Shown in pieces: positions 4,685 through 31,593 of a stretch of DNA of 34,117 nt (the stretch's first letter is position 1; every line of letters begins with the position of its first letter). Location: NCBI GenBank assembly GCA_038746285.1, contig JBCDKT010000043.1, positions 1-34,117 of the forward strand, given 5' to 3'. The DNA is from Bacteroidota bacterium (lineage in GTDB: Bacteria; Bacteroidota; Rhodothermia; Rhodothermales; JANQRZ01). Position numbers and translations under genes: made by a program. The notes under the pieces were generated by a model. That model worked only from the letters and a program-made list of their open reading frames with translations. It made no database searches and was not told where the DNA came from.

Positions 4685-7222
4685 CTAGCGGACGAGGGTG
4701 AGCGAGCGCGAGGCGGTCCGGCCTCCCGCCGTGAGGCGGGCGACGTAGACCCCGGCAGCGAGTTCGGCAGCGTCGAACCGGACGCGGTGCGCGCCGCTCT
4801 CCTTGCTGCCCTGGTCGAGGAGCGCCACGCGCCGGCCGGCAGCGTCGAACACTTCGAGGCGGACCTCGGCGGAGCGGTCGAGTTCGTAGGCCAGCGTCGT
4901 GCTGGCGCGGAACGGATTGGGGGCCACCGCCAGCAGGCGGAAGTCCTGCGGCCCCACCGTCGGCTCCGAGGCCACAGCGGGCGGGAGCGCGCGGCGGTAC
5001 ATCCCGTTGCCGTGCGTCGCCACCTGGAGTGTTCGGTCGGCGGCGGAGTAGACGAGGTCCATCACCAAGACGGCTTCGGGCAGCCCGGCGGTGAAGGCGT
5101 TCCACGTCGTTCCCGCGTCGTTCGTCTCGAAGACGCCCACGTCGTTGCCGATGTAGACCGTCCCAGGCCGGAGCGGGTCGAAGGCAACGGCCTCGGCGGG
5201 TGCGTCGGGGAGCGTGCCGCTCACGTCGGTCCACGTCTGACCGGCGTCCTCGGTCTTGTAGACGTGCCCCGTCCCGAATCCGCCCAGCGTCACCCAGGCC
5301 ACCTGGTCGTCACTGGGGTCGATGGCGATGTCGGTCACGAAGCGGTCCGGCAAGCCCGTCGTGATGTCGGTCCAACTGCTCCCCGCGTTACGCGTGACGA
5401 ACATCCGGGGCGGCCCTGGATTGTCTACCGGCGCACGGAGGATCGGGGCCGTCGAGACGTAGACCACGTCCTCGTCGAGAGGCGAGACGGCCATCGCAAG
5501 CGTCGGGTTGGCGTTCGGGTCGATGTTGCTGCCGCCGTTCGTGGCGGTCCACGAGTTGCCCCGGTTCTCCGAACGGTAGACGATGCTGCGCCCGGCATAG
5601 AGCCGGCTCGGATCGGTCGGCGCGAGGGCGTAGGGCGCGATGAACGCCGTGTTGCCTGCGTCCGGCGGGATGATGAAGTCGAAGTCGTCCCCCCCGTCGC
5701 TGGACCGGGCCATGCCGAGGTTCTGGAACGACGCGTAGACGATGTTGGGGTCGAAGGGGTCGATGGCGCTCCACGAGCCGTCGCCGCCGAGGATGCGGTC
5801 CCAGTTCGGGCTACCGGTGTAGCGGACGGTGTTGTTGTCCTGCAACCCGCCGATGGCGAAGTCGGCGTTGCCGGGATCGACCGAGGTGCCGTTGTAGAAC
5901 TGCGTCGTCTGATACCCCTGGCTGATGTCGACGATCGTGCTGCCGCCGTTCGTCGTCCGCGCCACGCCGCCGTCGTGGGCGAAGTAGACGATGTCAGGGT
6001 CGGTCGGGTGGAAGGCGACGGCGTGGTGGTCCGGGTGCGGATCATTCAGCTCGACCTGGTTGAAGCCGCCGTTGGAAGAGAAGAACAGAGGCACACCGCC
6101 GAGGTAGAGCTCGTCCGGCCGGTTCGGGTTGACGCCGACGTAGTGGGCAAACCAGCCCTGGAAGGCGGCGTAGTTGTTCGTCGAGACCGTCGTCCAGGCA
6201 TCCCCGCCGTCGACCGTGCGGATCAGGAACGTCTCTGAGCCGCTCGTGAAGATGCCGTTGCCGACGCTGGCGTAGACCGTGTCCTGGTCGGTCGGGTGGC
6301 GGCTCAGGAGCACCTTGCCGATGTAGCTCGGCGGCACGCCGTCGGTGACCTGCGCCCACGTCGCGCCGCCGTCGGTGGTCCGGTAGAGGCCGTAGCCCTC
6401 GGACTCCTGGTTGCCGCAAGCGGCGAGGATATCGTCCGGGTCCTCGGCGTTAATCGAGATGTCGGTGCCCATCACGACGTCCAGCGAGGTGTCCCACGTC
6501 GCGCCCGCGTCGCGGCTGACGAGGATGCCCTCGGTCGTCGCGGCCCAGACGGTGGCGGCGTCGGTGGGGTCGATGCGGATCATCTGGACGCCGCGCTCCT
6601 GGTTGCGGCTCCAGTCGAGGCTCTTGGTCCAGGTCGCGCCCGCGTCGGTGCTCTTGAGGATGCCCATGCCGTAGCTGCCGCGCGTCGGCCGGTAGACGAC
6701 GCCGCCGAAGGACTCGCGGTAGCGGTAGACCTCGCCCGTGCCGAGGTAGACCGTACTCGTGTCGTCCGGGGCGAGGGCGATCGCCGAGGCGGCCGTCACG
6801 CCGAAGCCGGTCGAGATGCGCTCCCACGAGCTGTTGAGCCCGGCGTCGTAGGACCGCCACAGCCCGCCACCGGCAGACCCGACCCAGACCGTCTCCGGCC
6901 GCTCGGGGTTGAGGACGATGGCGAGCGAACGCCCACCGATGTTCTGGGGACCGATGGCCTCCCACGGCTCGCCGCCGCCGCGCGAGGCGGCTTCGAGGCT
7001 GCGCCGCGCCGCGACGGCCTCGGCAAACCCCGTGGACGGAATGGTCTCGTTGGGATAGGCCCGCTTATCGTTCCACAGCACGAGGGCTTCGTAGGCCCCG
7101 GACACAGCGTACGCGTCGGGCGCTTCCGAGGTGGGCGCCGGTTCGGGGGCGTAGAGCGCAAGGGCAACCCCGACGGCGACGACGGCGAGGCAGAGCAGCA
7201 GCGGGCGGAGGAAGGACGGCAT
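4685..7222 (-). CDS. Secreted BNR/sortilin-like beta-propeller protein with T9SS sorting domain
   Basis: This is an 845-aa protein from ATG 7222. An in-frame GTG at 7249 would add nine residues before the signal sequence and is less likely. The N-terminal segment MPSFLRPLLLCLAVVAVGVALA is a signal peptide or signal anchor. The body holds many BNR/VPS10-type Asp-box repeats, each with a S/T-x-D-x-G-x-x-W core: KSTDAGATWTK, VSRDAGATWDT, RTTDGGATWAQ, KTEDAGQTWTD, ETNDAGTTWNA. These build one or two beta-propellers. The last roughly 80 residues are a T9SS type A sorting domain (VAPNPFRASTTLAYEL, VFDAAGRRVALL, AAGVYVARL). Similar sortilin-like exoproteins occur in Bacteroidota, usually with unknown ligands and sometimes glycan-related. 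The gene is probably co-transcribed with the aminopeptidase gene 79 nt upstream. Active-site residues of a glycosidase cannot be assigned. Confidence 0.88.
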   Translation of the reverse strand: MPSFLRPLLLCLAVVAVGVALALYAPEPAPTSEAPDAYAVSGAYEALVLWNDKRAYPNETIPSTGFAEAVAARRSLEAASRGGGEPWEAIGPQNIGGRSLAIVLNPERPETVWVGSAGGGLWRSYDAGLNSSWERISTGFGVTAASAIALAPDDTSTVYLGTGEVYRYRESFGGVVYRPTRGSYGMGILKSTDAGATWTKSLDWSRNQERGVQMIRIDPTDAATVWAATTEGILVSRDAGATWDTSLDVVMGTDISINAEDPDDILAACGNQESEGYGLYRTTDGGATWAQVTDGVPPSYIGKVLLSRHPTDQDTVYASVGNGIFTSGSETFLIRTVDGGDAWTTVSTNNYAAFQGWFAHYVGVNPNRPDELYLGGVPLFFSSNGGFNQVELNDPHPDHHAVAFHPTDPDIVYFAHDGGVARTTNGGSTIVDISQGYQTTQFYNGTSVDPGNADFAIGGLQDNNTVRYTGSPNWDRILGGDGSWSAIDPFDPNIVYASFQNLGMARSSDGGDDFDFIIPPDAGNTAFIAPYALAPTDPSRLYAGRSIVYRSENRGNSWTATNGGSNIDPNANPTLAMAVSPLDEDVVYVSTAPILRAPVDNPGPPRMFVTRNAGSSWTDITTGLPDRFVTDIAIDPSDDQVAWVTLGGFGTGHVYKTEDAGQTWTDVSGTLPDAPAEAVAFDPLRPGTVYIGNDVGVFETNDAGTTWNAFTAGLPEAVLVMDLVYSAADRTLQVATHGNGMYRRALPPAVASEPTVGPQDFRLLAVAPNPFRASTTLAYELDRSAEVRLEVFDAAGRRVALLDQGSKESGAHRVRFDAAELAAGVYVARLTAGGRTASRSLTLVR

Positions 7223-17475: not shown

Positions 17476-19641
17476 TCACGGCAAAGCGTTCAGCACCTGC
17501 TGGGCCGTGGGCTGTCCGGGGTCGAGGCGTAAGGCCTGCTGGGCGTACTGCCGCGCCCCGCTAGCATTGCCAAGCTGGAAGTAGGCGACAGCGAGGTTCA
17601 CCGCCACGTCAGCCCGGTCCGGTGCCACGGCCGAGGCCCGTTCCAGCGTCCCAGCGGCCTCCGCCAACGCTCCGCGCTGGAGTTGGTACATCCCGAGGTT
17701 GCTGAGCGCGTTCGCGTCGTTCGGCCCTGCCTCGACGGCCCGGCGGAACAGGGTGCCTGCTGCGGCCTCGTCGCCGCTGCCAGCCCGCACGATGGCAAGG
17801 TTGACGAGGGCGTCGACGTAGTCCGGCTCCAGGTGAATGGCGTTTTCGAGATGCTCGACGGCCTCGCCCGGTGCACTTCCGAGCCGAAGCAGCGCCGTGC
17901 CGAGGTTGTAGTGGGCCGAGGCCAGCCACGGCTCGTGGCCGAGAGCCTCGCGGTACTCGCGGGCCGCCGCTTCGACGCGCCCCTGGGTCTCCAGGAAGCG
18001 CCCGTAGTTGAGCCGGACGTCGGCGAGCGCCGGCTGCACCGAGAGGGCCTCGCGGTAGAGCCGCTCGATCTCGTTCGGCGGGCCGCCCGTCGCCTCGTAG
18101 GCCTGGGCCAGCGCGTTGAGGCGCTCCGGCACGCCCGGCTTGAGCCGGATCGACTCCTGCAGCGCCGGGATCGCCTGCCGCGTCCGGCCACGCTGCATCC
18201 GGGCGAACCCGAGGAGGTAGTGCCCCTCGCTGAGGTGGGGCGCAGCCGCGAGCGCCCGCTCCAGCGTCGCGATGCCCTTGTCGAGCGCTGCGACCTCGCC
18301 GTTCTGCCGGCCGTAGATGACGTAGGCCATCCCCTCGTAGACGTCGCCTTCGGTACGGGACTGACCGGACTGGTCGTCCGGGAAGTAGCTCTCTAGTTCG
18401 ATGTCGCCGCCCGTCTCCGCAGCCACCTGGACCCGGTCCTCGGCGCGGACGACCCGGATGAAGTGGTCCGTAAACGATGAGTGCGGCGCATCGTCTGCCT
18501 CGACCTTCGGCATGTGGCAGGCGAAGCAGTTAGCCTCCGACGCGTGCTGGGCGCGAAGCTCGGGCGTGGGCATCCCCGCCTGAAGCGTCGCCGGCTCGTG
18601 GCAGCCCTGGCACGTCGCGTTGAAGTACTCCGGCCCTTTGTCGCGGAAGCCCTCGTGCGGGTTGTGGCACGTCACGCAGTCCATCGCGCTGGACTGGACG
18701 AAGCAGGCGCTTTGCTTCATCCGGTCGGCGTGGGAGATGACGCTGATCGTGCCCGGCGCGCTGCCTCCCACGTCGAAGTGGGCGACGTGCGCCGCGAGCG
18801 GCTCCGAAGGGACGTACCCAAACGCCTCCTTGCCTTCCCGCAGAATAGAGACGGTTCCGTTGAGGTGGCACTGCTGGCACACGTCGAGCCGGAGGTCGAG
18901 GCTCAGGTGCGCTGGGTTGACGATCGTGTAGTCGATGGAGTCGGCAGCCTCGGGGTCCGCGAGGCGGGCCTCGACGTGGATCGAGCCCGGCCCGTGGCAG
19001 CGCTCGCACCCGATGCCGTCGGCAATCGAGGCGTACGCGCCTTCGACGAAAGACACCGGCTCAGAGGCTCCGTTGTGGCAGGCCATGCAGCGCGCCGGAA
19101 TGGTCCGGTCGAACCGACCGTTCGCCTCGCGGTAGCCCGGGCTGAAGTCCCAGCGGCCCCTCCCCCCGTCGGCCTGGGTGTACCACGTCAGCGGAAGCTC
19201 GTAGTAGAGGTCGTCCTGCTTCGTGAGGTAGGTCCGCGCGGCGGTCCCGCTACCGACGACGAAGTCCATCTGCCGGACGAGCTGGTGCGTCTTTCGGCCG
19301 CCCGGTCCCTGGCGGTACTCCTCCTGGAAGAACACGCCCTCGCGTTCGTAGACTCTGTAGTAGAACCCGCTAGCCTCGTGGTAGAGCGCTGCCCCGCCGT
19401 AGCGCTCCACGGCGCGGTCCGGCGTGAGTGCGTAGAGCGACTGCGCCATCCCGTGCGACTGGTAGCTCGTGTACAGGTCTTCGTGGCAGGAAGCGCACGC
19501 CTCGTCGCCGACGTAGGACCCGGCGTCTGTATTTCGAAAGATGGAGCCGGTTTCGACGTCCGCGACAGGGCGTGGCTCGTCCGCACCACCGCACCCGACG
19601 GCCGCGAGGGCGAGGAGTAAGAAGAGTGCTCGGATGAACAT
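17476..19641 (-). CDS. Heptaheme c-type cytochrome-TPR lipoprotein
   Basis: This 721-aa protein starts at ATG 19641. A lipobox (LAAVGC, C17) indicates membrane anchoring after export. The N-terminal half carries seven CxxCH heme c sites: CASCH (49), CMACH (185), CERCH (212), CQQCH (255), CVTCH (322), CQGCH (344) and CFACH (372), with distal histidines available as axial ligands. The layout resembles cytochrome c554 or NrfA-like multihaem domains, though family assignment is tentative. From about residue 436 to the end there are about seven to eight TPR units (for example HYNLGTALLRLGSAPGEAVEHLENAIHLEPDYVDAL), which usually mediate protein contacts. It could act in periplasmic electron transfer with a docking scaffold; the partners and electron acceptor are unknown. 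The gene appears monocistronic, with a promoter overlapping the upstream terminator. Confidence 0.9.
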   Translation of the reverse strand: MFIRALFLLLALAAVGCGGADEPRPVADVETGSIFRNTDAGSYVGDEACASCHEDLYTSYQSHGMAQSLYALTPDRAVERYGGAALYHEASGFYYRVYEREGVFFQEEYRQGPGGRKTHQLVRQMDFVVGSGTAARTYLTKQDDLYYELPLTWYTQADGGRGRWDFSPGYREANGRFDRTIPARCMACHNGASEPVSFVEGAYASIADGIGCERCHGPGSIHVEARLADPEAADSIDYTIVNPAHLSLDLRLDVCQQCHLNGTVSILREGKEAFGYVPSEPLAAHVAHFDVGGSAPGTISVISHADRMKQSACFVQSSAMDCVTCHNPHEGFRDKGPEYFNATCQGCHEPATLQAGMPTPELRAQHASEANCFACHMPKVEADDAPHSSFTDHFIRVVRAEDRVQVAAETGGDIELESYFPDDQSGQSRTEGDVYEGMAYVIYGRQNGEVAALDKGIATLERALAAAPHLSEGHYLLGFARMQRGRTRQAIPALQESIRLKPGVPERLNALAQAYEATGGPPNEIERLYREALSVQPALADVRLNYGRFLETQGRVEAAAREYREALGHEPWLASAHYNLGTALLRLGSAPGEAVEHLENAIHLEPDYVDALVNLAIVRAGSGDEAAAGTLFRRAVEAGPNDANALSNLGMYQLQRGALAEAAGTLERASAVAPDRADVAVNLAVAYFQLGNASGARQYAQQALRLDPGQPTAQQVLNALP

Positions 19642-19685: not shown

Positions 19686-19714
19686 GGAAAATAACAACGG
19701 GGTGAGCCCGTCAA
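19686..19714 (-). promoter_or_regulatory. Candidate promoter of cytochrome gene (TTG-N18-TATTTTCC)
   Basis: On the minus strand, TTG at 19714-19712, within the loop of the upstream terminator, is followed after 18 nt by TATTTTCC (19693-19686). The predicted leader is about 40 nt before ATG 19641. Confidence 0.35.
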
Positions 19715-19727
19715 GGCTCACCCCGTT
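19696..19727 (-). terminator. Terminator of the TonB receptor-cargo-PorV operon
   Basis: A perfect 13-bp stem (AACGGGGTGAGCC with GGCTCACCCCGTT) and a 6-nt loop lie 30 nt after the PorV-like stop codon. On the minus strand the hairpin is followed by GTTATTTTCC, a U-rich tract. Confidence 0.8.
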
Positions 19728-19757: not shown

Positions 19758-20795
19758 CTAGAGCGTGAAGTTCACCGAGAACGCGTTGACGCCGCTGAAC
19801 ACATCGGAGGGACGGTAGGCGTAGTCAACGGAGAGCCCACGCCCGATCATATTCAGGTTCAGGCCGGCTCCGATGTTCCAAGGCTGGAACGCCGACACGT
19901 CGGTCTCGGTGGTGAGGTCGAGCCCTCCGCGGACGAAGAACAGGTTCTGGTATCCCAACTCGACGCCTCCGGCGTACTGGTCGAGGTCGTACGCGTTGGA
20001 GCGGAAGTTGCCGAGGACGGTGGCGGTGAGGTCACCCGCGAACTGGCGCGTGTAGGCCACACCGAAGTTCAGGAGCGAGGGTAACTCGGCACCGAGGTCA
20101 TCGATGTCACCGGCGATGTTGCCCTGGCCCTGCGGCCCGTTCTGCGTGATCGGCGTGTTGAGGCCGTCGCCGCTGAACTCCATCTGCGGGCCGAAGTTCT
20201 TCAGGCTGACCCCGAAGCGGAGGCCGCTCTCGCCGACGACGTAGGTCATGCCTGCGTCGAACGCGATACCGTTCGAGCTCACGTTGTCGATCCGCCGGCC
20301 GAGGCCCTTGAAGGTGATCCCAGCCGCGATGCGGTCGGTGAACTGCCGAGCGACCGTGGCCCCGAGCACGATGACCGAGGACGTGTACGTGAGCGCCGGG
20401 TCGATCTCCGGGTTTGTCTCGGTCTGCACCGGGATGTCGCCGTAGTCCCACGACGTGAGCGTCAGCGCGATGTTGTTGTTGCCGAAGCGCTGGGCCACAC
20501 CGAAGTAGTTGATGCCGATGTCGGCCAGGTATTCCGTCCGGCTGAACATGGCGTTCGTGCTCTGGTTGGTCATGAGCGCGGCCGGGTTGCTCTGGACGGC
20601 CTCGACGCCGCTGAGCGTACCCATGCCGCTGGTGAGCGCGGAGCCGAGCGCCACGGTGCGTGGCGTGATCGGGACGAGCAGTTCTTCCATCGCCGCCGTG
20701 CCAGATCGGTCGTCTCCCTGCGCGTGGGCGTCGGGGGCGCAGAACCCGAGGAGGGTTGCGACCAAGACGCTGACTGTGAGGAGGTTCGTCTTCAT
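19758..20795 (-). CDS. PorV/PorQ-family outer-membrane beta-barrel
   Basis: The product is 345 aa from ATG 20795, with a signal peptide (TVSVLVATLLGFCAPDAHA). Family hallmarks are the N-terminal VPITPRTVALGSALTSGMG, the SNPAAL motif and the segment RTEYLADIGINYFGVAQRF followed by DYGDIPV. Alternating amphipathic strands end in an aromatic/hydrophobic C-terminal strand (AFSVNFTL), as in outer-membrane barrels. By family knowledge, PorV shuttles T9SS cargo from the translocon to the attachment complex, and PorQ and related paralogs have less defined roles. Its position 44 nt after a giant T9SS cargo gene and its shared operon suggest a dedicated adaptor, but whether it is the general PorV or a cargo-specific paralog cannot be told here. 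Confidence 0.88.
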   Translation of the reverse strand: MKTNLLTVSVLVATLLGFCAPDAHAQGDDRSGTAAMEELLVPITPRTVALGSALTSGMGTLSGVEAVQSNPAALMTNQSTNAMFSRTEYLADIGINYFGVAQRFGNNNIALTLTSWDYGDIPVQTETNPEIDPALTYTSSVIVLGATVARQFTDRIAAGITFKGLGRRIDNVSSNGIAFDAGMTYVVGESGLRFGVSLKNFGPQMEFSGDGLNTPITQNGPQGQGNIAGDIDDLGAELPSLLNFGVAYTRQFAGDLTATVLGNFRSNAYDLDQYAGGVELGYQNLFFVRGGLDLTTETDVSAFQPWNIGAGLNLNMIGRGLSVDYAYRPSDVFSGVNAFSVNFTL

Positions 20796-20839
20796 ATCAG
20801 GATTCCGGTTTGGGATGACGTGAGTGCGTCACGGTCAGG

Positions 20840-23800
20840 TTAGAAGATGGTGATTCGGTTCCGCCGGTTGACGACGCCGAACTTGAGCACCTTCTCTCCG
20901 ATACCGGGGGCATCGATGTGGATCAGGTACATGCCGCTCGCGACAGGCAGCTGGTTATGGGTGTTGAGGTCCCAGTCCAGCGACCGGGCCGGACCGTCCT
21001 TGCGGAGCGTGCGAATGAGCGTCCCCGACACCGTGTAGATGCGGATGAGCACTTCGTCCGGCAGGTTGATGAAGCGCGCGACGCGGTCGAGGTTGTCCGT
21101 CTCGTAGGCCGAGCGTCCCATGTAGGGGTTCGGCACGATCCCAATCAGGTCCAGCGCCTCTTCAGCTACTTCCGCTACGTTCGTCTCGAAGGCGAGGTCA
21201 GCCGTCTCAAAGACAATCACGTCGCCGACCGTTTCGTCACCCGCAGAGAGCGCAGGCTTCGGCGAGGTCTGGAAAGCAATCGTCGTCCCGGCAGGCGGGA
21301 CCGTTCCGTCGCCCGCCAGGTCGGCGATGATCACCCCGTCGAGGCCGCCGACGGGACCGACGAAGCGGTTGTTGGCTCCCTTGTAGCAGAAGTCGATGTA
21401 GTACCCCTGGCTGCGGCAGTCGTTGTCGCTGCCTGGCGCGTCCGGGTCTACCTGCATGTCACCGTCGTCGTCGGGGTCGTAGGTGGCACCGACGCCGCCG
21501 AAACCGTTGGCGGCGGCGGCGAACTGCGCGTAGCCGTCAGGACGGTCCGGCATTGTCCACAGGACGCGGTGCGAGACATCGAGTTGGAGGGTCTCATCCT
21601 CAATCGTGCCGTCCGGCAGCGCTCGGCGAACGGTCACCTCCTGCGACGCTCCGAAGGCGGTCTTCGTCCAGTCCGGGCCCGGGTCTCCGCCGCTCGGTGC
21701 CCGGAGGATCGGGATCATCCGCACGTCGTCGGCCTCGAACCCGTTCTGCACGTTGCGCACGTTCCAGAGTTCGAACGGCACGCTGGTGATCAGGTCGTTC
21801 CCACCTGGGACAGCCGAGGCGTAGACCGCCAGGCAGCTTCCGGGAGACGCGCACGCGCTAGTGAAGCGCATCTCGAAGTCGTCCGGCAGGGCAGCCCCGA
21901 CGAATGAACCGAGATCGGCGATGTTATTTTCCGTGTTGGTCACGACGTAGTCGTCAGTGCTGTTGGGGTTCAGCCAAACCGTGTTGCCGCCGAGGTAGTC
22001 CTCGAAGCGGCAGCCGATGTCTGTGGCCTCCGCTCCTTCGGCACATACCTCCGTGTTGGGGTTGGCCACTTCGACGATGCCAAACCCGCTACCCAGCACG
22101 GGGCCGGCATCGCCGGTGAAGGCTGCACCGGCCGCGTCGGCCGCAAAGGCCGTCGGGATGGACGCTGCGATGGCCTGCGTGAACTCGATGCCGTCAACGA
22201 CGATCCGCTGCTCGCCGGCCCGCACGACAACGGCACCGTCCTCGAAGGCGTCCTGGCCGTCGAAGGCGACGCTTCCATCGCGGAGGATGCGGAACGTCGT
22301 CTCCAGCGAGTCAGGGTTGCCGGTCGTTCCCGTGTCGAAGGAGAAGAACTCGACGGTGTACGTGGCACCGGTGAGTAGGGTCGGGTCTACGACTTCGGCG
22401 ATGATTGTGCCGCTCCCTCCACCGCCGGTACGCGTGCCCACGATGGCGTCTCCGAGGTCGGCGTTCTGCACCGAGCCACCGTTGCCGGCTTGCACGTTCG
22501 AGGGCCGCACCGTGATGTTAGTCGGCGCGCTCTCGATGATCTTCGGCGTGGAGAACTCGTTGTATGCGAAGGCCGTGATGCCGAAGTAGTAGTCGGTGTA
22601 GTTCACGAGACCGAGTTGCGTCAGGTCGAAGGTGTACCGGATGCCGGTGTCTTGCGCGTCCAGCGCAACGAACGGCACGAGGTCGCCAACGGCTGGGTCG
22701 AATTCGGTGTCGATCACCTGCGTCACGCCGTTGATGACATCAAACTGGCCGATCTGGGCACGCTGGCCTTGTTCGAAGTTGGCGTTCGGGTACTGGTAGA
22801 TGTTGAACCCTTCGAAGTTGTAGGTCTTGTCCGAGGCTACCGAGTCCGGCAGGGCTGCGATGAGCTGGTCGAAGATCTCGTAGCTGCCGAGGAAGTTCGA
22901 GCTGGTCTCGGGGTACCCCCACACCAGCGCGGCTTCGCCGGAGACTTCGATGGCCTCAAGACAGCCACCGCCGCCGGGTTGGAGTGCTGCGTTCGGGCTG
23001 TTGGTATCGCAGAGTGTGGGCGGCGGGGGCGCTGCTGCCAGTTCGAAGTCGGCGTCGTAGGCCGCCTGGGCGAGCGCGTCGGCCTGGCGCATCACGTCGA
23101 TCGAGCTGAGCCGGTCGCCGCCCTGTCCGAAGACGATGCCGAAGACGATGTCCTGGGCAACGCCCTGCTCGAGGTCAAACGGGCCGGTGGTGACGAGGAA
23201 GCGCCGGTCGCCTGACGGATTGGGTACCCCATTACCGTCGGGGTTCTCCTCACTCCAGAACTCGCCCGTGACTGGATTGCCGGGGAATGCGAACAACGTT
23301 ACTTCCCCGTCGGTCTGGTATCCGTCACCTTGCTCGGTCAGGGGAACGCCGTCCCCCCATAGACCCTGCATGAAGTTGTACTTGGCAACTGCGTTGGCTG
23401 GATCAGACCTCGGATCATTTGCACCGATGTTCTGGAAGTAGGAGTACCGCGTGACGCCGAGCGTGTCGTCTCGCTCTCCGTCTCCGTCCGCATCCACGAT
23501 CGGCCCCTGGAAGAAGTCGTACCCTGTGGCCGGCGGGACACCGTAGACGTTGTCCACGTCCTCTGCGTTGTAGACGAACCCGAGGCTCAGCGTGGTGTCC
23601 ACACCGACGAAGTCATCCGTAGCATCGCCCAAGTCCGGGTCGGAGAAGATGGAGAAGAAGGTTTCCTCCAGCGTTCCCGGCGTTTTCTTGATAATCCGGT
23701 AGCGATAGAACGTGACATCGTTGAGCGCGTCGGCGCGGGCAAATGAAAACGCCAGCACCTGGGCTTCGACGCCGATGGGCGGGCTCTGGCTTTCGAGGTG

Positions 23801-24589
23801 CGTGTTGCCCAGGTCATTCATCACCCACCAGAGAGCCTGGTTGCCGATGATCTCGGGGCGGTCCCCTCCCGCGAGGTCGTAGACGGGGCGGCCGGCAGCC
23901 TGGCGGACGCTGGGGATAGCGCGCTCTAGCTCGTTACGCTCATCGATGAAGTCGGGCGTAATCGTGTCGTCCTCGAGGCACGGGTCGTCGAGCACGGCGG
24001 GGCAGATGATGCCGTCTTTGTTGTCATCGTCGTTGCTCACGCCGTCTTCGCCCTCATCAACGAGGCCGTCGCCATCATCGTCGAACCCGTTCCCCCTGGC
24101 AGCGAGAACCGGAGCGCCGAGTTCGGCAGGCCACTGAGCGAGGTCGGCCGCCGCTGCAATTCCGGCGTCGAAGTTGAGAATGTCTGCCTGGCTGACCTTG
24201 TAGATACGGTCAAACTGGGCGCAGTCGTTCGGGTCAGGCAGCGTCCCGTCGTCGTTGAGCGGACCGGGCCAGAACTCGAAGTCATCGTAGCGAGAGCCCG
24301 CCGCGACAACGGTGCCGTCGACGATGCCGCCGATCCAGATACCGCTGGCGAAGATCGGCGGGTTGCCCGATGCCTGCGGGACGAGGTAGCCGAGGCCGTT
24401 GGTCGTAGAGCCACCGTAGAACAGGCTGCCCGTGTTGAACATGCGGGCGAGCACGTTGTTGATGTCGAGGTCTTTTTCAGCCTGACCGCTCAGGCAAGAC
24501 CCTGGCGTTGGGGACTGGCTGTAGGCCTGCGGTACCGACCCTAGCAGGAGGGCGAGAAGCAGGAGGAAGGAAGTCGTGTAAGGTCGCAT
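20840..24589 (-). CDS. Giant T9SS-exported surface protein
   Basis: The product is 1249 aa from ATG 24589, which has GGAG 9 nt upstream; ATG 24598 would add three residues. The signal peptide is TTSFLLLLALLLGSVPQAYSQ. The N-terminal region has the motif SGIWIGG followed by FEFWPGPL, which recurs in large secreted Bacteroidota proteins. Calcium-binding-like DxDGDG repeats follow (about 173-196, DDDGDGLVDEGEDG, and again near 369-377). The middle is beta-rich with FN3-like parts (YTDYYFGITAFAYN). The C-terminal about 110 residues form a type A sorting domain variant: IVPNPYMGRSAYET, IRIYTVSGTLIRTL, SGMYLIHIDAPG. Catalytic motifs are absent, so a structural or binding role is likely. It is the middle gene of a receptor-cargo-PorV operon. 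Confidence 0.88.
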   Translation of the reverse strand: MRPYTTSFLLLLALLLGSVPQAYSQSPTPGSCLSGQAEKDLDINNVLARMFNTGSLFYGGSTTNGLGYLVPQASGNPPIFASGIWIGGIVDGTVVAAGSRYDDFEFWPGPLNDDGTLPDPNDCAQFDRIYKVSQADILNFDAGIAAAADLAQWPAELGAPVLAARGNGFDDDGDGLVDEGEDGVSNDDDNKDGIICPAVLDDPCLEDDTITPDFIDERNELERAIPSVRQAAGRPVYDLAGGDRPEIIGNQALWWVMNDLGNTHLESQSPPIGVEAQVLAFSFARADALNDVTFYRYRIIKKTPGTLEETFFSIFSDPDLGDATDDFVGVDTTLSLGFVYNAEDVDNVYGVPPATGYDFFQGPIVDADGDGERDDTLGVTRYSYFQNIGANDPRSDPANAVAKYNFMQGLWGDGVPLTEQGDGYQTDGEVTLFAFPGNPVTGEFWSEENPDGNGVPNPSGDRRFLVTTGPFDLEQGVAQDIVFGIVFGQGGDRLSSIDVMRQADALAQAAYDADFELAAAPPPPTLCDTNSPNAALQPGGGGCLEAIEVSGEAALVWGYPETSSNFLGSYEIFDQLIAALPDSVASDKTYNFEGFNIYQYPNANFEQGQRAQIGQFDVINGVTQVIDTEFDPAVGDLVPFVALDAQDTGIRYTFDLTQLGLVNYTDYYFGITAFAYNEFSTPKIIESAPTNITVRPSNVQAGNGGSVQNADLGDAIVGTRTGGGGSGTIIAEVVDPTLLTGATYTVEFFSFDTGTTGNPDSLETTFRILRDGSVAFDGQDAFEDGAVVVRAGEQRIVVDGIEFTQAIAASIPTAFAADAAGAAFTGDAGPVLGSGFGIVEVANPNTEVCAEGAEATDIGCRFEDYLGGNTVWLNPNSTDDYVVTNTENNIADLGSFVGAALPDDFEMRFTSACASPGSCLAVYASAVPGGNDLITSVPFELWNVRNVQNGFEADDVRMIPILRAPSGGDPGPDWTKTAFGASQEVTVRRALPDGTIEDETLQLDVSHRVLWTMPDRPDGYAQFAAAANGFGGVGATYDPDDDGDMQVDPDAPGSDNDCRSQGYYIDFCYKGANNRFVGPVGGLDGVIIADLAGDGTVPPAGTTIAFQTSPKPALSAGDETVGDVIVFETADLAFETNVAEVAEEALDLIGIVPNPYMGRSAYETDNLDRVARFINLPDEVLIRIYTVSGTLIRTLRKDGPARSLDWDLNTHNQLPVASGMYLIHIDAPGIGEKVLKFGVVNRRNRITIF

Positions 24590-24640
24590 GCGAGCCATCT
24601 CCGTAGTTGGTGGAGTGGGAGAGTCGTTCGGGAAGAAGAG

Positions 24641-24681
24641 TCCGGGGCAGGAAGCAAGCGCGCATCGCCTCCTGCCCCGGA
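24641..24681 (-). other. Intercistronic hairpin between TonB receptor and exoprotein
   Basis: Exact 12-bp arms TCCGGGGCAGGA and TCCTGCCCCGGA flank a 17-nt loop, 5 nt past the TonB receptor stop. No U-run follows on the minus strand, so it may protect the upstream mRNA from 3' decay or reduce read-through rather than fully terminate. Confidence 0.7.
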
Positions 24682-24686
24682 GGGGC

Positions 24687-27600
24687 CTAGAAGTCCAGCA
24701 GGAAGCCGAGGCGGACGCGCCGGGGCGGACCGTAGAAGAAGCCTCCGCCCGAAGATTGTTGGCCGCCGACGTTCACGGGGCCCCCGGTATACGCGCTGTA
24801 GTTGAAGAAGCGGCTGTCCGAGAACGGAGCGTTGTTGAGGTACGTTGCTCCACCGGGTGTGAACAGGAACCCATCCTGGTCTGCCAATCCGGTCGCCCGG
24901 TAGACAGCGACGATGTTCTCGGAGTCGAGCAGGTTCTGGATCCAGAGATACGCCTTCAGACGAGCCCCTCCGAAGCCGAGATTGAAGCCTCGGTCGATCC
25001 GAAGGTCGATCCGCGAGGTGGCAGGCAGCGTCTCGCTGTTGACATCGCCCACCGTTTCGCTCGTAAACGACTGGCTGACATCGAAGAGCGGCTCGGCGAG
25101 CGGTGTGAAGCGCTGGCCGCTCCCGAAGGAGCCCAGGATGTTGATCCCGAAGTTCTCGAAGACGCGAGCCCCGCCGATCATCGGGCCCTCGTCGTCGCCG
25201 AAGCGGTAGTCGAGCGAGATGTTGCCGGTGTGGCGCTGGTCGAAGTCGGCCGGGCTGATGAAGTTCGGGAAGAACTGCCCGCGCCACACGACCGTCCCGG
25301 TCGAGGCAGCGTCCGAACCGGTCCCGCTCGCGAACGAGAGGGTGTAGTTCGTGTTGATCGACAGGTTGTTCGTCCGTCGGAGGTCGAAGCCGAGCTCGAC
25401 GCCGCTCGTCGTGGTAAAGTCGGCGTTGAGGAAGGTCCCGTACTCCGGCTGGGCACCGAAGAGGGTCCGGTTGGAGATTTTGTTCTCCTGCGTCCGGTAG
25501 AACCCGGAGAGCGTGACTGCTGCCCGGTCGCCGACGCGCTGGCGGAAGCCGAGCTCGTACTGCGTCGTCCGCTCCGGCTCGAGAGCCGAGTTGGGCGTGC
25601 GCGAGTCCTGCCCGGTGATCTCTTCGTAGTCGCTGAACGGCGTGAAGGCGCGCTCAGTCGGACGCTGGGTGGTGACGTTGTAGCTGGCGAAGAAGAGCGC
25701 CCGGTCCGTGACCGGGAAGCTGACCCCGATGCGGGGCATGAACGTCGCCTGCGGGGTGTAGTCCGTGAAGGCCTCCGAGCGCCGAGCGTCCGTGTCGGGC
25801 TCGACCTGGCCTGAGAGATCGCCTGCGATGACGCCGGACGTAGTGGAGACGCCCTGGGTGTCGAAGAAATTGCCGTCCAGGTCTCGGTAGCCGACAATGT
25901 CTCCTGCGTCGTTGAAGTAGACCGCGAAGTCGCTGTCAATGCCAGCGGGCACGTCCACGTCCGTCAGACTCCCGGCGCGAACGATCGGCGTGGTCGCAAA
26001 CGGGTCGAGGAGCACCTGCGTGTTGTTGTCGAAGACGTCGACCCGGAGGCCGAGGTTGATCACGAGGTCCCTGAACTCGATCTTGTCCTGCACGTAGCCG
26101 GCGTAGTAGATCGGCTGGTACGGAGCGATGTTCAGGTTCGTGCGGTCGAAGTAGCCGTTGATATCCTGATCGTCGACCTCGTTGAGGCCGAGGAAGTCGT
26201 ACCCGTAGCGCTCCGGCGTGATACCGCGCACGGCCTCGAAGGGCAGTTCGTCGTAGGACCGGACGCCGCCTTCGGGAAGCCCCTGCACGGTCGACTCGAT
26301 TGTCCCGTCGTTGTAGAACCGCGAGAGCGAGGCGCCCGCGATGCGGAAGTACCGGCGGGTCTGCTGCTCGAACTCGCCGCCAAACTCGATCTGGTGCACG
26401 CCGAGCTGCGTCGTGGCGCTGCCCGAGAACCGGATCTGCTGGTCGTGGGCCTGCTGGAACTGCGTGAGCTGGGCACCGGGGAGGTTGAAGGTGCCTCCTA
26501 CGCTAGCAGGCCGGGGGCCTCCGTCTTGGTCGAAGACCTGCTCGTATTGGCCGTTTCGGAAGACGAAGTAGTTGCGGGCGATCTCGTGGTAGTCGCCCTC
26601 GATGTCGCCGTAGAACAGGGCGTCCTCTACGTCACGCGAGAAGCCTTCGGGGTACTGGACGTACTTGAAGTCCTGGTACTCGCCCTGAATCTGGTAGAAG
26701 GCGTTGTCCGAGAGGCGCTGGCGGAAGGTGCCGTAGACGCGCCAGTTGTCGCGCTCGTCATTGTAGAACCGGTCGCGGTTGTAGAGCGAGTTGCCGAACA
26801 GGAATTCCTCGCGCCAGTTGGTGTTGTATCCGCCGCCGATGCGGAGGCTGAGGGCGCTCGAGATGTTGAAGTTGACGTTGCCGTTGAACGTGTAGTTGTT
26901 CTGCGGCGCGTCTACGCCTCGCTCGAAGTCGAATCGGTCCTCGAGGTAGCTCTCGGGCGCGTTGATGAGGAAGTTGTTACCTGCGATCTCGAAGCCGTCC
27001 GGAATCTGGCCACCCAGCAGAACCGCGAGGCTGTCGTTGTTGATTCCGGCTCCGGTGATGAGCGCCGGGTCAAACGGGATGAACTGCTCGTCGCCTGCGC
27101 CGTTGACGAGGCGCAGCACCTGGGGGTTGCTCTGGAGGAAGGCGAAGTCGTCGTCCGAGAGGCGGAAGGTGTCGGTGCTGTAGACCCGGAAGTCCTGCTC
27201 GAAGGTGCCCTGCCCGGAGAGGAAGAAGCTAGCCCGGCCCGGCACGATCGGTCCGCCAATGGAGAGCGAGCCGAGGTTGTAGCCGTAGGAGTCGAGCACC
27301 TCGGAGGTGATGAACTCGACGGAGCCGAAGAAGTCTTCGCGGCCGGACTTGGTCGTGATCGAGATCACGCCGCTCTGCACGTCACCGTACTTGGCGGGGA
27401 TGGTCCCGATGAGCATCTCTTGCTCTTGGATGGCGGCCTGGTTGACGCCGACGGCCGGCCCGATGCCCTCGGGCGACGCCCCGGTCACCTTGACGCCGTC
27501 CACGAAGTAGACGACCTCCTGGTTACGACCGCCGCGGATGAAGAGGTCGTCGCCGCGGCCGTTGTTGACCACGCCGTTCTGGATGGCGGCCACGTCCTGC

Positions 27601-28034
27601 ACCCCGCGGATCGGGAGGTTCTGGATGTCCTCGCCCGAGACCACGCGCGGCGCGCCGATGGCGTCCCGCTGGATGAGCGGCTGCTCGTACTCGACGACGA
27701 TCTCGTCGAGCGTGATGTCACTGCCGAGCTCGAAGTCCTGCTCGGTCGTGTACCCAGACGAGATCGTGATGCCTTCGACCGTTTTGGACTGGAAACCCAC
27801 GAACGACGCCGTGACGTCGTACTGGCCGACCGGGATGCCGATCACAAAGTAATTGCCGTCGAGGTCTGTGGCGGCACCAAGCTGCGTGCCGCCGATGATG
27901 ACGTTGGCACCCGGCAGCGGGTCGCCGAGGTCGTCAACGACGCGGCCTGACAGTTTGCCGGTGTTCTGCGCCACGGCTGCGAGCGGCGCGCCCAGCAGCA
28001 GCAGGAGCACGAGTATACCCAGGTTGCGAAGCAT
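24687..28034 (-). CDS. TonB-dependent outer-membrane receptor with carboxypeptidase-like N-terminal domain
   Basis: The product is 1115 aa from ATG 28034, which is preceded by an unusually strong Shine-Dalgarno (GGAGGAGG). The signal peptide (residues 1-23) is followed by a CarboxypepD_reg-like domain (25-105; GKLSGRVVDDLGDPLPGANV) and a plug (about 125-230; DDLFIRGGRNQEVVYFVDGV). A large 22-stranded-type barrel follows, ending GPPRRVRLGFLLDF with a terminal aromatic. No canonical SusD gene is adjacent, so it is not a standard SusCD pair. Substrate imported by TonB energy is unknown. Its operon partners are a T9SS cargo and a PorV-like barrel. It is paralogous to the receptor at 28462-31593 (shared GYFDRTN and AGYVQD blocks). 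Confidence 0.95.
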   Translation of the reverse strand: MLRNLGILVLLLLLGAPLAAVAQNTGKLSGRVVDDLGDPLPGANVIIGGTQLGAATDLDGNYFVIGIPVGQYDVTASFVGFQSKTVEGITISSGYTTEQDFELGSDITLDEIVVEYEQPLIQRDAIGAPRVVSGEDIQNLPIRGVQDVAAIQNGVVNNGRGDDLFIRGGRNQEVVYFVDGVKVTGASPEGIGPAVGVNQAAIQEQEMLIGTIPAKYGDVQSGVISITTKSGREDFFGSVEFITSEVLDSYGYNLGSLSIGGPIVPGRASFFLSGQGTFEQDFRVYSTDTFRLSDDDFAFLQSNPQVLRLVNGAGDEQFIPFDPALITGAGINNDSLAVLLGGQIPDGFEIAGNNFLINAPESYLEDRFDFERGVDAPQNNYTFNGNVNFNISSALSLRIGGGYNTNWREEFLFGNSLYNRDRFYNDERDNWRVYGTFRQRLSDNAFYQIQGEYQDFKYVQYPEGFSRDVEDALFYGDIEGDYHEIARNYFVFRNGQYEQVFDQDGGPRPASVGGTFNLPGAQLTQFQQAHDQQIRFSGSATTQLGVHQIEFGGEFEQQTRRYFRIAGASLSRFYNDGTIESTVQGLPEGGVRSYDELPFEAVRGITPERYGYDFLGLNEVDDQDINGYFDRTNLNIAPYQPIYYAGYVQDKIEFRDLVINLGLRVDVFDNNTQVLLDPFATTPIVRAGSLTDVDVPAGIDSDFAVYFNDAGDIVGYRDLDGNFFDTQGVSTTSGVIAGDLSGQVEPDTDARRSEAFTDYTPQATFMPRIGVSFPVTDRALFFASYNVTTQRPTERAFTPFSDYEEITGQDSRTPNSALEPERTTQYELGFRQRVGDRAAVTLSGFYRTQENKISNRTLFGAQPEYGTFLNADFTTTSGVELGFDLRRTNNLSINTNYTLSFASGTGSDAASTGTVVWRGQFFPNFISPADFDQRHTGNISLDYRFGDDEGPMIGGARVFENFGINILGSFGSGQRFTPLAEPLFDVSQSFTSETVGDVNSETLPATSRIDLRIDRGFNLGFGGARLKAYLWIQNLLDSENIVAVYRATGLADQDGFLFTPGGATYLNNAPFSDSRFFNYSAYTGGPVNVGGQQSSGGGFFYGPPRRVRLGFLLDF

Positions 28035-28040
28035 ATGCTA

Positions 28041-28048
28041 CCTCCTCC
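28041..28048 (-). promoter_or_regulatory. Strong Shine-Dalgarno (GGAGGAGG) before TonB receptor
   Basis: GGAGGAGG ends 6 nt before ATG 28034. It fixes the start codon and is exceptional here, because most genes in the window, such as rho and aroK, have no recognisable ribosome-binding sequence. Confidence 0.8.
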
Positions 28049-28323
28049 GAGATGGTAATGCGGTGTTGGTGTGGGCCTGCGCCGGAGCGGCGGTCGGCAC
28101 CACGTTAGCTAAGAGCGTGCGTTGAGGGGTGCCACAGGCGTCCGTGACTGCGAAGGGACGCGCACCGCCGACCACAGGGCTCGACCAGTCCGCCGCGCCG
28201 GCACCGCGCGCGAAGCCGGTGGGGCGCAGGGGCGAGCGTAGGGAGGGTCGTAACAACAGCGGATGGCGGGGTCCTCAAGATGGGCGGTTTCGACTGGTGG
28301 TTAATCGTTCCTTAACGCGGTGG

Positions 28324-28355
28324 CGAATATAGGCGGGGGGTTCGGAAGATGTCAA
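28324..28355 (-). promoter_or_regulatory. Promoter of the receptor-cargo-PorV operon (TTGACA-N18-TATATT)
   Basis: On the minus strand, TTGACA (28355-28350) is followed after 18 nt by TATATTCG (28331-28324). This fits both sigma-70 and the Bacteroidota TTG/TAnnTT(C/T)G pattern. It is the clearest promoter in the window. Confidence 0.72.
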
Positions 28356-28461: not shown

Positions 28462-31400
28462 CTACAGCGTCACGCGCAGTCCGAACCAGACCCGGCGTGG
28501 CGGGCCGTAGGAAAATACGCCGCCCGTGCTTTGGGTGCCGCCAATATTCACCGGCCCACCGACATAAGCAAGGTAATTAAACGCCCCTCCCATCCGGTCC
28601 GGCTGACTATCGAGGTAGGCACCGCCTCCCGGTGTATTGAGAAACCCGTCGTCGTCCGGCTCGCCGGTGGCGCGGTAGACCGCCGCGACGTTCTCCGCGC
28701 CCAGCACGTTCTCGGCCCACAGAAACGCGTCGACCGTGCTGGGTCCGATGCGAAACGCCTTGCCGAGCCGCAGGTCGAGTTGGGCGACCCACGGGCGGCG
28801 CTCAGCGTTGACGTCTCCTGCTGCCTCGCTTGTGAATGTGTCGTCTGGGTTGAAGAGCGGTGCCTGGAGTACCGTGTAGGGCAGCCCGCTCTGTGCGGAG
28901 AGGACCACGCCCAATCCGAGGCCTTCGAGGACAGGACCGAACGCTTCCCCCACCCGGTAGTCGGCTACAAGGTCGAGCGCGTGGCGCACGTCGAAGTCGC
29001 TGCGGGCGTCGGTGGCTGGAAACAGCCCTCGCCAGACGACGGTACCCGTCGAGGCTGCGCCGGCCCCGGTGCCGTCGGCGAACGAGAGCACGTAGTTCGC
29101 GCGAAGCGACACGCCTAGTGTCCGGTCGAGGGCGCCTGCGAGGTCGAGGCCGTAGACGGTCGCGGAGCCGATGTTGCGCGGCGTGGTGTATTCCGGCCAG
29201 CCGCCGTAAAGGATCTGCTGCTCGATGAGATCGCTATGGCGGCGGTAGAAGACCGTCCCGCGCACCCGCACTCGCTCGGCAAACGTACCCTCCGCGCCGA
29301 GCCCAATGTCGTCCACGGTCTCGGGACGCAGCGCGCCGTTGCCGACCGCGTCCCCGCCGGTTACCTCTTCGTAGACCGAGAAGGGCGCGTAGAGCTGCGG
29401 CGCGGGCCGCCGGGCGAGCCGGCCGTAGTAAGCGAACGCCGTCGCCTGCTCCGACAGGCGGGCGCGCACGCCGAGGCGCGGCTGCACCGCGACGTGCGTC
29501 GGAGCCGACTCGAACGCGGCGGAGCGGGGCTCCTCGGTGAGATCGACCTGCCCGGAGCGCTCGCCGGTGATCGTGAACGCGAAGGCCTCTTCCCCACCGG
29601 CGTCGTAGAACCGCCCGTCGAGATCGCGGAAGCCGACGACGGCGCCGGAATCGTCGAAGTAGACGGCGAAGTCGCCCCCGATGCCGTCCGGTCGCGCGTC
29701 GAGCGCCGAGGCGCGAACGACGGGCACCGTCGCGAAGGGATCGCGCAGCACCGTCGCGTTGCTGCCGAAGGCTTCGACCCGCAGGCCGAGGTCGAGGGCG
29801 AGGCGGCCGAACGTGACGTGGTCCTGCACGTAGCCCGCAGCGTAGGTTGGCCGGTACGGAGCCACGTCGGGGTTTGTCCGGTCGAAGTAGCCGTCTGCGT
29901 CTTCGCTGTCCGTCTCGTCCAGCCCGAGAAAGTCGTAGCCGTAGCGCACGCGGGTGACGCCGCGCAGGGCCTCGAACGGCAGCTCGTCATAGCGCTGCAC
30001 GCCGTCCTCGGGCAGTCCCGCGACCGTGGACTCCACGCTGCCGTCGGCGAAGAACCGGGCGAGGCTGCCGCCGGCGAGCACGAACTGCCGGTGCGTCTGC
30101 CGCTCGACTTCGCCCCCGACTTCGAGCCGGTGTGCGCCGAGGGTGAGCGCCGCCCGGCCGTGCACGCGGAACGATGCCCCTTCGCCTTTCTGGTAGATCG
30201 AGGTGGGCGCGCCCGGCAGCGCAAACGTGCCGCCGACGGTCCTGGGCCGCGCCGCGCCATCTTGCGTGAAGATCGGCTCGTACTGCTGGTTGCGGAAGAC
30301 GAAGTAGCGCTGGGCGATCTCGCTCGCGTCCGCGTCGATGTCGCCGTAGAACAGCGCGTCCTCGACCTGGTCCGAGAACTGGCGCGGGTGCTGGACAAAG
30401 CTCGAACGCTGGCCTTCGACTTGAAGCTGGTACGATGCCCGGTCGCTAGGCGCGTAGTCCAGGGCGGCGTAGAACCGGCCGGCGTCGCGCTCGGCCCGGT
30501 CGAGCCCGTCGCGGTTGTAGAGCGCGCTGCGGAAGCGCCGCGCGGGATTCGCCGTCCGGTCGAGCCGGTCGCGGCTGAGGGTTGCGCCGAGCCGGAAGCG
30601 GAGCGCCGGCATCAGGTTGAGGACGGCGCTGCCGTCGAGCGCGAAGGCATCGAGCGGATCGTCCTTGCCGCGCTCCAGTTCGAACCGGTCCTCGGTGAAG
30701 GTGGCCGGCGCGTTGATCAGCCCGTTGCGCTCGGAGATCTCGAACCCGGCCGGGAGGTCGAGCATGGCGCGAAGGTCGCTCTGGGTGAAGGGCTGCCCGC
30801 TCGCGGCCGCTTGCTGCGCGGCCTGCCACGGGAACGGCACGTCCCGGGTCTCGCCCTGCGCGTTCACCGTGCGCACGACCTGCGGGCCCGCGAGGAGGTC
30901 GGCGTAGGCGTCGTCCGAGAGCCGGTACGTCTCGATGCCGAACGGCGTGGCATCGGCCAGGCGGCGCACCTCGCCCGAGAGCGCGAAGCGCCCGAACTGA
31001 GGGTTGGCGAGCGGCCCATGCACGGCGAACGACCCGAGGTTGTAGCCGAACGCGTCGAGCCCCTCGGAGGTGATCCCCTCGACCCGGCCGCCGTAGCGCG
31101 CGCCGCCCTCGCGCGTCTCGATGGCGATCAGGCCCCCTGCCGCCTCGCCGTAGCGCGCCGGAACGTGGCCCGACAGCACCTCGATCCGCTCGACCACCTC
31201 GAACGGCACCGCCGGCTCACCCACGACGCGCACGCCGTCGATCACAAACGTCGGCTCCTGCCCGACCCGCTCCCGGTCGAAGACGCTCGCCAGGCTCTGA
31301 TTAAATAGACCAGTCTGATTCGCGAAATCGGTGACCGTGCGCCGGCTCAGCAACGGCACGCCGAGGTAGGACCGGTAGAACAGCGTCCCGTCGTCCAGCT

Positions 31401-31593
31401 TGCGGGCGACGCCCGGCAGGAGCGACGCTACCTCGCGCACGTCGCGCACCGGAAGCCCGTCGAAGCCGGGGCCGGAACCGTCGTCCCGCGTCCAGGCCGA
31501 GAGGCCGAGCGAATCCGCGTGCCACGCGTTGGGACCGGGTTGGGCCGCGAGCGGAGCGGCGAGTAGAACGAGCAGGAGCAGGCGAGCAGGCAC
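28462..31593 (-). CDS. Second TonB-dependent receptor, paralog lacking N-terminal domain
   Basis: The product is 1043 aa and starts at GTG 31593. After a short signal peptide (LLLLVLLAAPLAAQ) the protein goes almost directly into a plug (about 45-165; PTFVIDGVRVVG, YGEAAGGLIAIETR), so the carboxypeptidase-like domain of its neighbour is absent. The barrel shares long blocks with the 24687-28034 receptor, such as RYGYDFLGLDETD, GYFDRTNPDVAPYRP and GYVQD, and ends GPPRRVWFGLRVTL. A tandem duplication followed by divergence is likely. The plug carries an extra segment (YRSYLGVPLLSRRTV) before the DGV motif that may alter signalling or substrate. It has its own promoter between serA and its start, and no SusD or PorV partner. 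Substrate unknown. Confidence 0.92.
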   Translation of the reverse strand: MPARLLLLVLLAAPLAAQPGPNAWHADSLGLSAWTRDDGSGPGFDGLPVRDVREVASLLPGVARKLDDGTLFYRSYLGVPLLSRRTVTDFANQTGLFNQSLASVFDRERVGQEPTFVIDGVRVVGEPAVPFEVVERIEVLSGHVPARYGEAAGGLIAIETREGGARYGGRVEGITSEGLDAFGYNLGSFAVHGPLANPQFGRFALSGEVRRLADATPFGIETYRLSDDAYADLLAGPQVVRTVNAQGETRDVPFPWQAAQQAAASGQPFTQSDLRAMLDLPAGFEISERNGLINAPATFTEDRFELERGKDDPLDAFALDGSAVLNLMPALRFRLGATLSRDRLDRTANPARRFRSALYNRDGLDRAERDAGRFYAALDYAPSDRASYQLQVEGQRSSFVQHPRQFSDQVEDALFYGDIDADASEIAQRYFVFRNQQYEPIFTQDGAARPRTVGGTFALPGAPTSIYQKGEGASFRVHGRAALTLGAHRLEVGGEVERQTHRQFVLAGGSLARFFADGSVESTVAGLPEDGVQRYDELPFEALRGVTRVRYGYDFLGLDETDSEDADGYFDRTNPDVAPYRPTYAAGYVQDHVTFGRLALDLGLRVEAFGSNATVLRDPFATVPVVRASALDARPDGIGGDFAVYFDDSGAVVGFRDLDGRFYDAGGEEAFAFTITGERSGQVDLTEEPRSAAFESAPTHVAVQPRLGVRARLSEQATAFAYYGRLARRPAPQLYAPFSVYEEVTGGDAVGNGALRPETVDDIGLGAEGTFAERVRVRGTVFYRRHSDLIEQQILYGGWPEYTTPRNIGSATVYGLDLAGALDRTLGVSLRANYVLSFADGTGAGAASTGTVVWRGLFPATDARSDFDVRHALDLVADYRVGEAFGPVLEGLGLGVVLSAQSGLPYTVLQAPLFNPDDTFTSEAAGDVNAERRPWVAQLDLRLGKAFRIGPSTVDAFLWAENVLGAENVAAVYRATGEPDDDGFLNTPGGGAYLDSQPDRMGGAFNYLAYVGGPVNIGGTQSTGGVFSYGPPRRVWFGLRVTL

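Follow-up and report, generated by a model that had tools for sequence, protein, structure and literature searches.

A conserved trio of a TonB receptor, a predicted T9SS cargo and a PorV-family barrel in Rhodothermales and other lineages

Genes for a TonB-dependent receptor (TBDR), a 1252-aa cargo protein and a PorV/PorQ-family barrel lie in this order on the minus strand at positions 19758-28034 of the window, by which we mean the whole stretch of 34,117 nucleotides that was analysed, and the same order is conserved in several phyla. We think it rather probable that the trio is an arrangement resembling PorZ-PorQ, in which a dedicated barrel of the PorV family first carries the cargo and afterwards anchors it beside a TonB-dependent transporter to which a ligand is offered. 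Once Sec has moved the cargo across the inner membrane, its C-terminal Ig-like domain (CTD) would guide it through the cell's only SprA translocon in the outer membrane. There the CTD would be taken by the adjacently encoded barrel and not by the general carrier PorV, recognition depending partly on a C-terminal extension. The CTD would stay uncleaved, as in PorZ-PorQ and PorU-PorV, with the barrel remaining bound as a permanent anchor, and the anchored cargo would present a ligand, most likely a sugar or glycan, to the neighbouring TBDR for TonB-driven uptake, making it a T9SS-delivered functional counterpart of SusD. By analogy with known pairs, the role of the barrel as carrier and anchor is well supported, if inferred, whilst the CTD is presumably retained and the cargo presumably touches the TBDR; capture of a ligand for import is a plausible task and, of those considered, the most likely.

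Locus layout and conservation of the gene order

The TBDR (1115 aa; 24687-28034, -) is followed by the cargo (20840-24598, -), which begins with a signal-peptide-like segment, and by the barrel (345 aa; 19758-20795, -). A consensus promoter scan of 12.5 kb gave one match only, against 0.8 expected: TTGACA-18-TATATT (28326-28355, -), with 11 of 12 positions matching and a sequence almost letter-for-letter identical in two relatives, one of the same genus (G001) and one of the same family (G002). The leader placed downstream of it, of about 280 nt if its start is inferred from the -10 hexamer (28035-28319, -), ends in GGAGGAGGTAGC followed by the ATG; a riboswitch or other known RNA was rejected here, as zero Rfam families matched at gathering cut-offs. 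Between the TBDR and cargo genes lies a hairpin with a 17-pair stem (24641-24681, -), the structure of which is kept in both relatives while its letters differ, and 3' of the PorV-type gene lies an intrinsic terminator (19696-19727, -), with a terminator hairpin of matching stem at the same place in both. Within the order, a strong hairpin was found 3' of PorV in 28/28 loci and between TBDR and cargo in 22/28, but is not typical of the cargo-PorV gap. As the TBDR-cargo hairpin usually lacks a T-run (median 2 of 8), it looks like an element of mRNA processing or stability, and the signals fit a single transcript with such an element after the receptor gene. The unit of three genes with promoter, hairpin and terminator that a preliminary description had proposed was thus located in all its elements, and all three signals recur in the two relatives.

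Loci for comparison were picked by similarity of the cargo alone, so that the neighbouring genes could not bias the choice, and a trio was counted as syntenic where a TBDR lay directly upstream and a PorV directly downstream on the same strand. This order was found in 31 of 40 cargo copies from Rhodothermales, in 35 of 42 from other families and classes of the phylum, and in 61 of 83 from named genomes, a set which overlaps the other two (some contigs being identical) and includes Ignavibacteria, Melioribacter, Calditrichota, KSB1, Neomarinimicrobiota, Flavobacteriales, Chitinophagales and Bacteroidales; the genomes are mostly MAGs, and the counts take related genomes as they come, uncorrected for kinship. 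Many of the copies lacking a partner are at contig edges or are tandem or orphan duplicates. The linkage of the three families in other genomes, which the same description had put forward as a test, is therefore conserved across several phyla.

Vertical inheritance alone can preserve some gene clusters, and the linkage could in principle be an ancestral gene order without joint function. We regard this as very improbable, given that the arrangement is kept across several phyla and that one genome can hold several similar trios whose members have diverged, for which inheritance of a single locus is insufficient. In the single-contig genome G012, about 10 of the 17 PorV genes examined are in trios, one of them of the type found in the window and about nine further, and divergent trios are also present in the genome under study, on contigs C33 and C6. 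Tandem trios or tandem cargo-PorV units occur at four loci (L143, L138, L189 and L192) and suggest duplication of the whole unit. Elsewhere (L090 and L106), cargo-like genes stand in tandem arrays that include neither PorV nor TBDR, and their C-terminal extensions are altered or absent. The genome under study also holds orphan cargo paralogues, 43-63% identical in segments (L027, 5535-8231; L028, 6462-9155; L029, 7106-11480), which have ordinary type A ends and no adjacent TBDR or PorV; an orphan paralogue on contig C8 carries an in-frame TAG.

No other protein of the genome is as close to the trio TBDR as a second TBDR (28462-31593, -) which lies upstream of the promoter. It has no CarbopepD_reg match and, among the loci examined, adjoins the trio in the nearest relatives alone. 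The terminator is closely followed by a gene for a 721-aa protein (17476-19641, -) with multihaem cytochrome c domains, matching Cytochrome_C554, MtrC/MtrF-like and decahaem models, and a C-terminal TPR array. Two ordinary CTD proteins are encoded elsewhere in the window, at 1923-4211 and 4685-7222 (-), namely a metallopeptidase of reprolysin-like type and a propeller protein of sortilin/Vps10 type. The trio often has an ordinary CTD protein as a neighbour in Ignavibacteria-like and Neomarinimicrobiota loci; conserved neighbours were rejected as a clue to function, Pfam showing little besides the CTD in the flanking proteins.

The barrel and the C-terminal domain of the cargo

The barrel matches the PorV/PorQ family model NF033709 (113.5 bits, cut-off 90), and its profile retrieved only the PorV of F. 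johnsoniae from the PDB (E 1.9e-8). Identity with canonical PorV, PorQ or PorV2 was rejected, all the equivalog models scoring below cut-off, including those for canonical PorV (NF033710, 33 bits against 250) and PorQ (NF033711, 84.9 bits against 220). A tree of 94 PorV-family proteins, built by a quick search with SH-aLRT support and no bootstrap, placed the barrels adjoining this type of cargo in one clade (SH-aLRT 99; 47 rows from six major lineages, all those sampled), nearest to which lie the remaining trio barrels, and the PorU-linked canonical PorV proteins in a separate clade (SH-aLRT 99).

SprA was found in 119/119 cargo-positive genomes, as against 229/296 of the genomes searched. 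The genome under study has one SprA, and a second one reserved for such cargos was rejected, as the second match is a 67-residue stretch below cut-off. The C-terminal end of the cargo (residues 1142-1244; 20867-21175, -) is predicted to adopt an Ig-like fold of T9SS type, for which the top three Foldseek matches were PorZ and PorU chains; VIA gave Z 10.1 for PorZ, 9.2 for PorU and about 7 for the CTDs of RemA, RemZ and NucA, and the weaker fold matches include S-layer and adhesin beta domains. No match was obtained with the standard type A models PF18962 and TIGR04183, and a type B cargo was rejected because PF13585 and TIGR04131 were not matched either. The cargo is not among the 150 PF18962 matches listed in its own genome, and none of those listed lies, by coordinates, directly before a PorV-family gene. 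All 43 cargos compared share lysine K1239, which corresponds in position to the nearly invariant CTD lysine that contacts PorV in structures of CTDs with the translocon (PMC10994853). Judged by its modelled structure, the cargo CTD is a T9SS class with a type A-like fold that the standard models miss.

Beyond this fold the cargo continues into a short extension, RRNRITIF (20843-20866, -; consensus of the order KKRVQLNxF). All 120 PorV-linked cargo copies have 9-10 residues beyond the CTD core, in most cases hydrophobic at -4 and ending in F or Y, whereas ordinary CTDs are without it and solved CTDs end where the cargo runs on for 8-9 residues. In the AlphaFold model the tail is not part of the CTD fold, and confidence is low at its end. 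When 'intact' was taken to require hydrophobic residues also at -4 and -1, the extension was intact in 111/120 PorV-linked copies as against 10/27 unlinked ones (Fisher p 2e-9, with kinship not controlled). About ten copies have an intact extension and no adjacent PorV. The trios on C33 and C6 have no extension, which cannot therefore be needed for linkage to PorV in general.

In known systems uncleaved CTDs keep PorU attached to PorV and PorZ to PorQ, and protection of CTDs from cleavage by their cognate barrels has been proposed as a hypothesis (PMC10202324). As the nearest arrangements are stable pairs of CTD and barrel, the barrel of the trio may be the final anchor of the cargo as well as its carrier. 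The trio unites a CTD of the PorZ/PorU sort with a downstream carrier gene such as type B cargo has, and a carrier that turns into an anchor would be the simplest mechanism. A self-contained module with a dedicated PorV, as the preliminary description had it, is thus upheld by the conserved linkage, the separate PorV clade and the lack of SusD, while its term 'shuttle' probably needs to change. It would nevertheless be possible for the barrel to be just that, a transient specialised shuttle to the attachment complex, after which PorU would remove the CTD and the cargo would be linked to LPS or released, with the TBDR merely co-regulated. This is what is known to happen to ordinary type A cargo (PMC10202324), and the genome itself has a PorU-PorV-like pair on contig C24. 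We consider this unlikely, however, since the CTD goes undetected by the ordinary type A model, is similar to CTDs that are retained and bears a conserved extension, and the TBDR is kept first in nearly all trios. It tells against our favoured reading that the carrier PorV is plastic and accepts many CTDs (PMC10994853), so that a dedicated partner is not mechanically required.

The N-terminal half of the cargo and the receptor

Homologues of the cargo are present in 56/60 related genomes, and the protein went unrecognised in Pfam and NCBIfam except for a weak PorZ match, below cut-off, at the C-terminus. It was modelled in two halves with mean pLDDT of 84 (N-terminal half) and 80. The former contains a predicted supersandwich domain (about residues 37-522; 23033-24490, -) resembling the N-terminal domains of GH15/GH65/GH94/GH116-type enzymes (VIA Z 14-19 over ~230-270 residues, at 3.1-4 A), with no catalytic helical barrel apparent in the models and zero matches by sequence of this half in the PDB. 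The modelled fold is of a carbohydrate-active-enzyme type, yet this does not prove sugar binding. The motif SDPDLGDATDDFVGVDT (cargo residues 319-335; 23594-23644), among the best-conserved stretches across all phyla, looks like a putative metal site.

A large all-beta cargo with Asp-rich repeats near residues 172-195, together with the S-layer and adhesin domains among the weaker CTD matches, might also be expected of a structural or adhesive surface layer formed by cargo and barrel, to which the TBDR would be an extra anchor or assembly site and not a transporter. A purely structural partner would not need the plug, the CarbopepD_reg domain and the TonB-box-like motif that the TBDR retains, and we think this explanation is quite unlikely. 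In Pfam and NCBIfam searches the TBDR was recognised as CarbopepD_reg, Plug and TonB barrel (PF00593, 3.5e-21; PF13620, 2.8e-18; PF07715, 3e-6), of which PF07715 and PF00593 exceed cut-off. Its TonB-box-like motif, LDEIVVEYEQ (residues 109-118; 27681-27710, -), lies between CarbopepD_reg and plug, and an ExVV-like pattern, E-[VI]-V-[VI], is common in the TonB-box region of 120 trio TBDRs. The region was rejected as a trio-specific signature, as the TBDRs of other trios have much of it too.

TBDRs can act in signalling, and with the TBDR gene first in the unit this one could serve sensing, or export and assembly of the cargo (e.g., gating or quality control), instead of import. This appears improbable to us: neither a sigma/anti-sigma pair nor a signalling domain was recognised among the window proteins scanned, and the orphan cargo paralogues exist with no TBDR nearby. 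Capture of a ligand for import is favoured because the TBDR is a constant partner and has a plug and a TonB-box-like motif, and because the cargo has a fold of carbohydrate-enzyme type.

Significance and relation to known systems

The trio could, more tentatively, be a further architecture of nutrient uptake at the outer membrane, parallel to SusCD, consisting of a TonB transporter and a T9SS-delivered binding subunit held on its own PorV-family barrel by a retained CTD, with a C-terminal latch in this branch; it would be old in the FCB group and multiplied in some lineages. We regard this broader view as possible and somewhat doubtful. The genome under study has one PF07980 (SusD) match, on contig C1. 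Over 13 genomes, PorV and SusD counts gave a Spearman coefficient of -0.49 (p 0.086, phylogeny not controlled), and the inverse relation is weak and suggestive only. Up to 28 PorV-family genes were found in one genome, G299, with zero SusD_RagB matches.

New here are the trio PorV clade, the CTD with its extension and the supersandwich fold of the cargo; no description of the trio was found in open-access papers on T9SS and on the occurrence of PorV paralogues together with SusD or TonB receptors. Type A CTDs have been said to be all served by one PorV (PMC12618676), in contrast to which we find cargos with a type A-like CTD fold that have their own PorV-family barrels in several phyla, often in multiple copies, each tied to a TBDR. 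If the favoured reading is true, it would account for the many PorV-family genes of many FCB genomes and would define a new class of CTD missed by standard models; it predicts that the cognate barrel shields the CTD from PorU, and it may uncover a SusCD-like import system in SusD-poor lineages.

Of the systems compared, PorZ-PorQ and PorU-PorV likewise combine a CTD protein with a PorV-family barrel, and it is to PorZ and PorU that the CTD fold of the trio is closest. However, the cargo is related to them in the CTD alone and carries a C-terminal extension; its gene has those of its barrel and a TBDR as neighbours, and the barrel scores below cut-off in the equivalog models for PorV and PorQ. 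The genes of type B CTD cargos are immediately followed by those of their PorP/SprF carriers, which serve as anchors (PMC12618676, PMC9143113); these cargos share with the trio a large surface protein, a carrier gene directly downstream and cognate pairing, whereas the CTD of the trio has a type A-like Ig fold, its carrier is of the PorV family and the partner gene encodes a TBDR and not PorE. In BamG-BamH, a FadL-like barrel grips its extracellular partner through loops (PMC12578637), but BamG belongs to BAM, while the profile of the trio barrel matches PorV alone in the PDB. From SusCD the trio differs in the absence of SusD, none being found among the 17 window proteins scanned, which agrees with the earlier view that it is not a classical SusCD locus; its TBDR also scores far under the SusC/RagA cut-off (TIGR04056, 53 bits against 368), and where SusCD has a lipoprotein as partner the trio has a predicted T9SS cargo. 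What the trio has in common with SusCD is a TBDR with CarbopepD_reg and, adjacently encoded, a partner which in the trio is predicted to be surface-exposed.
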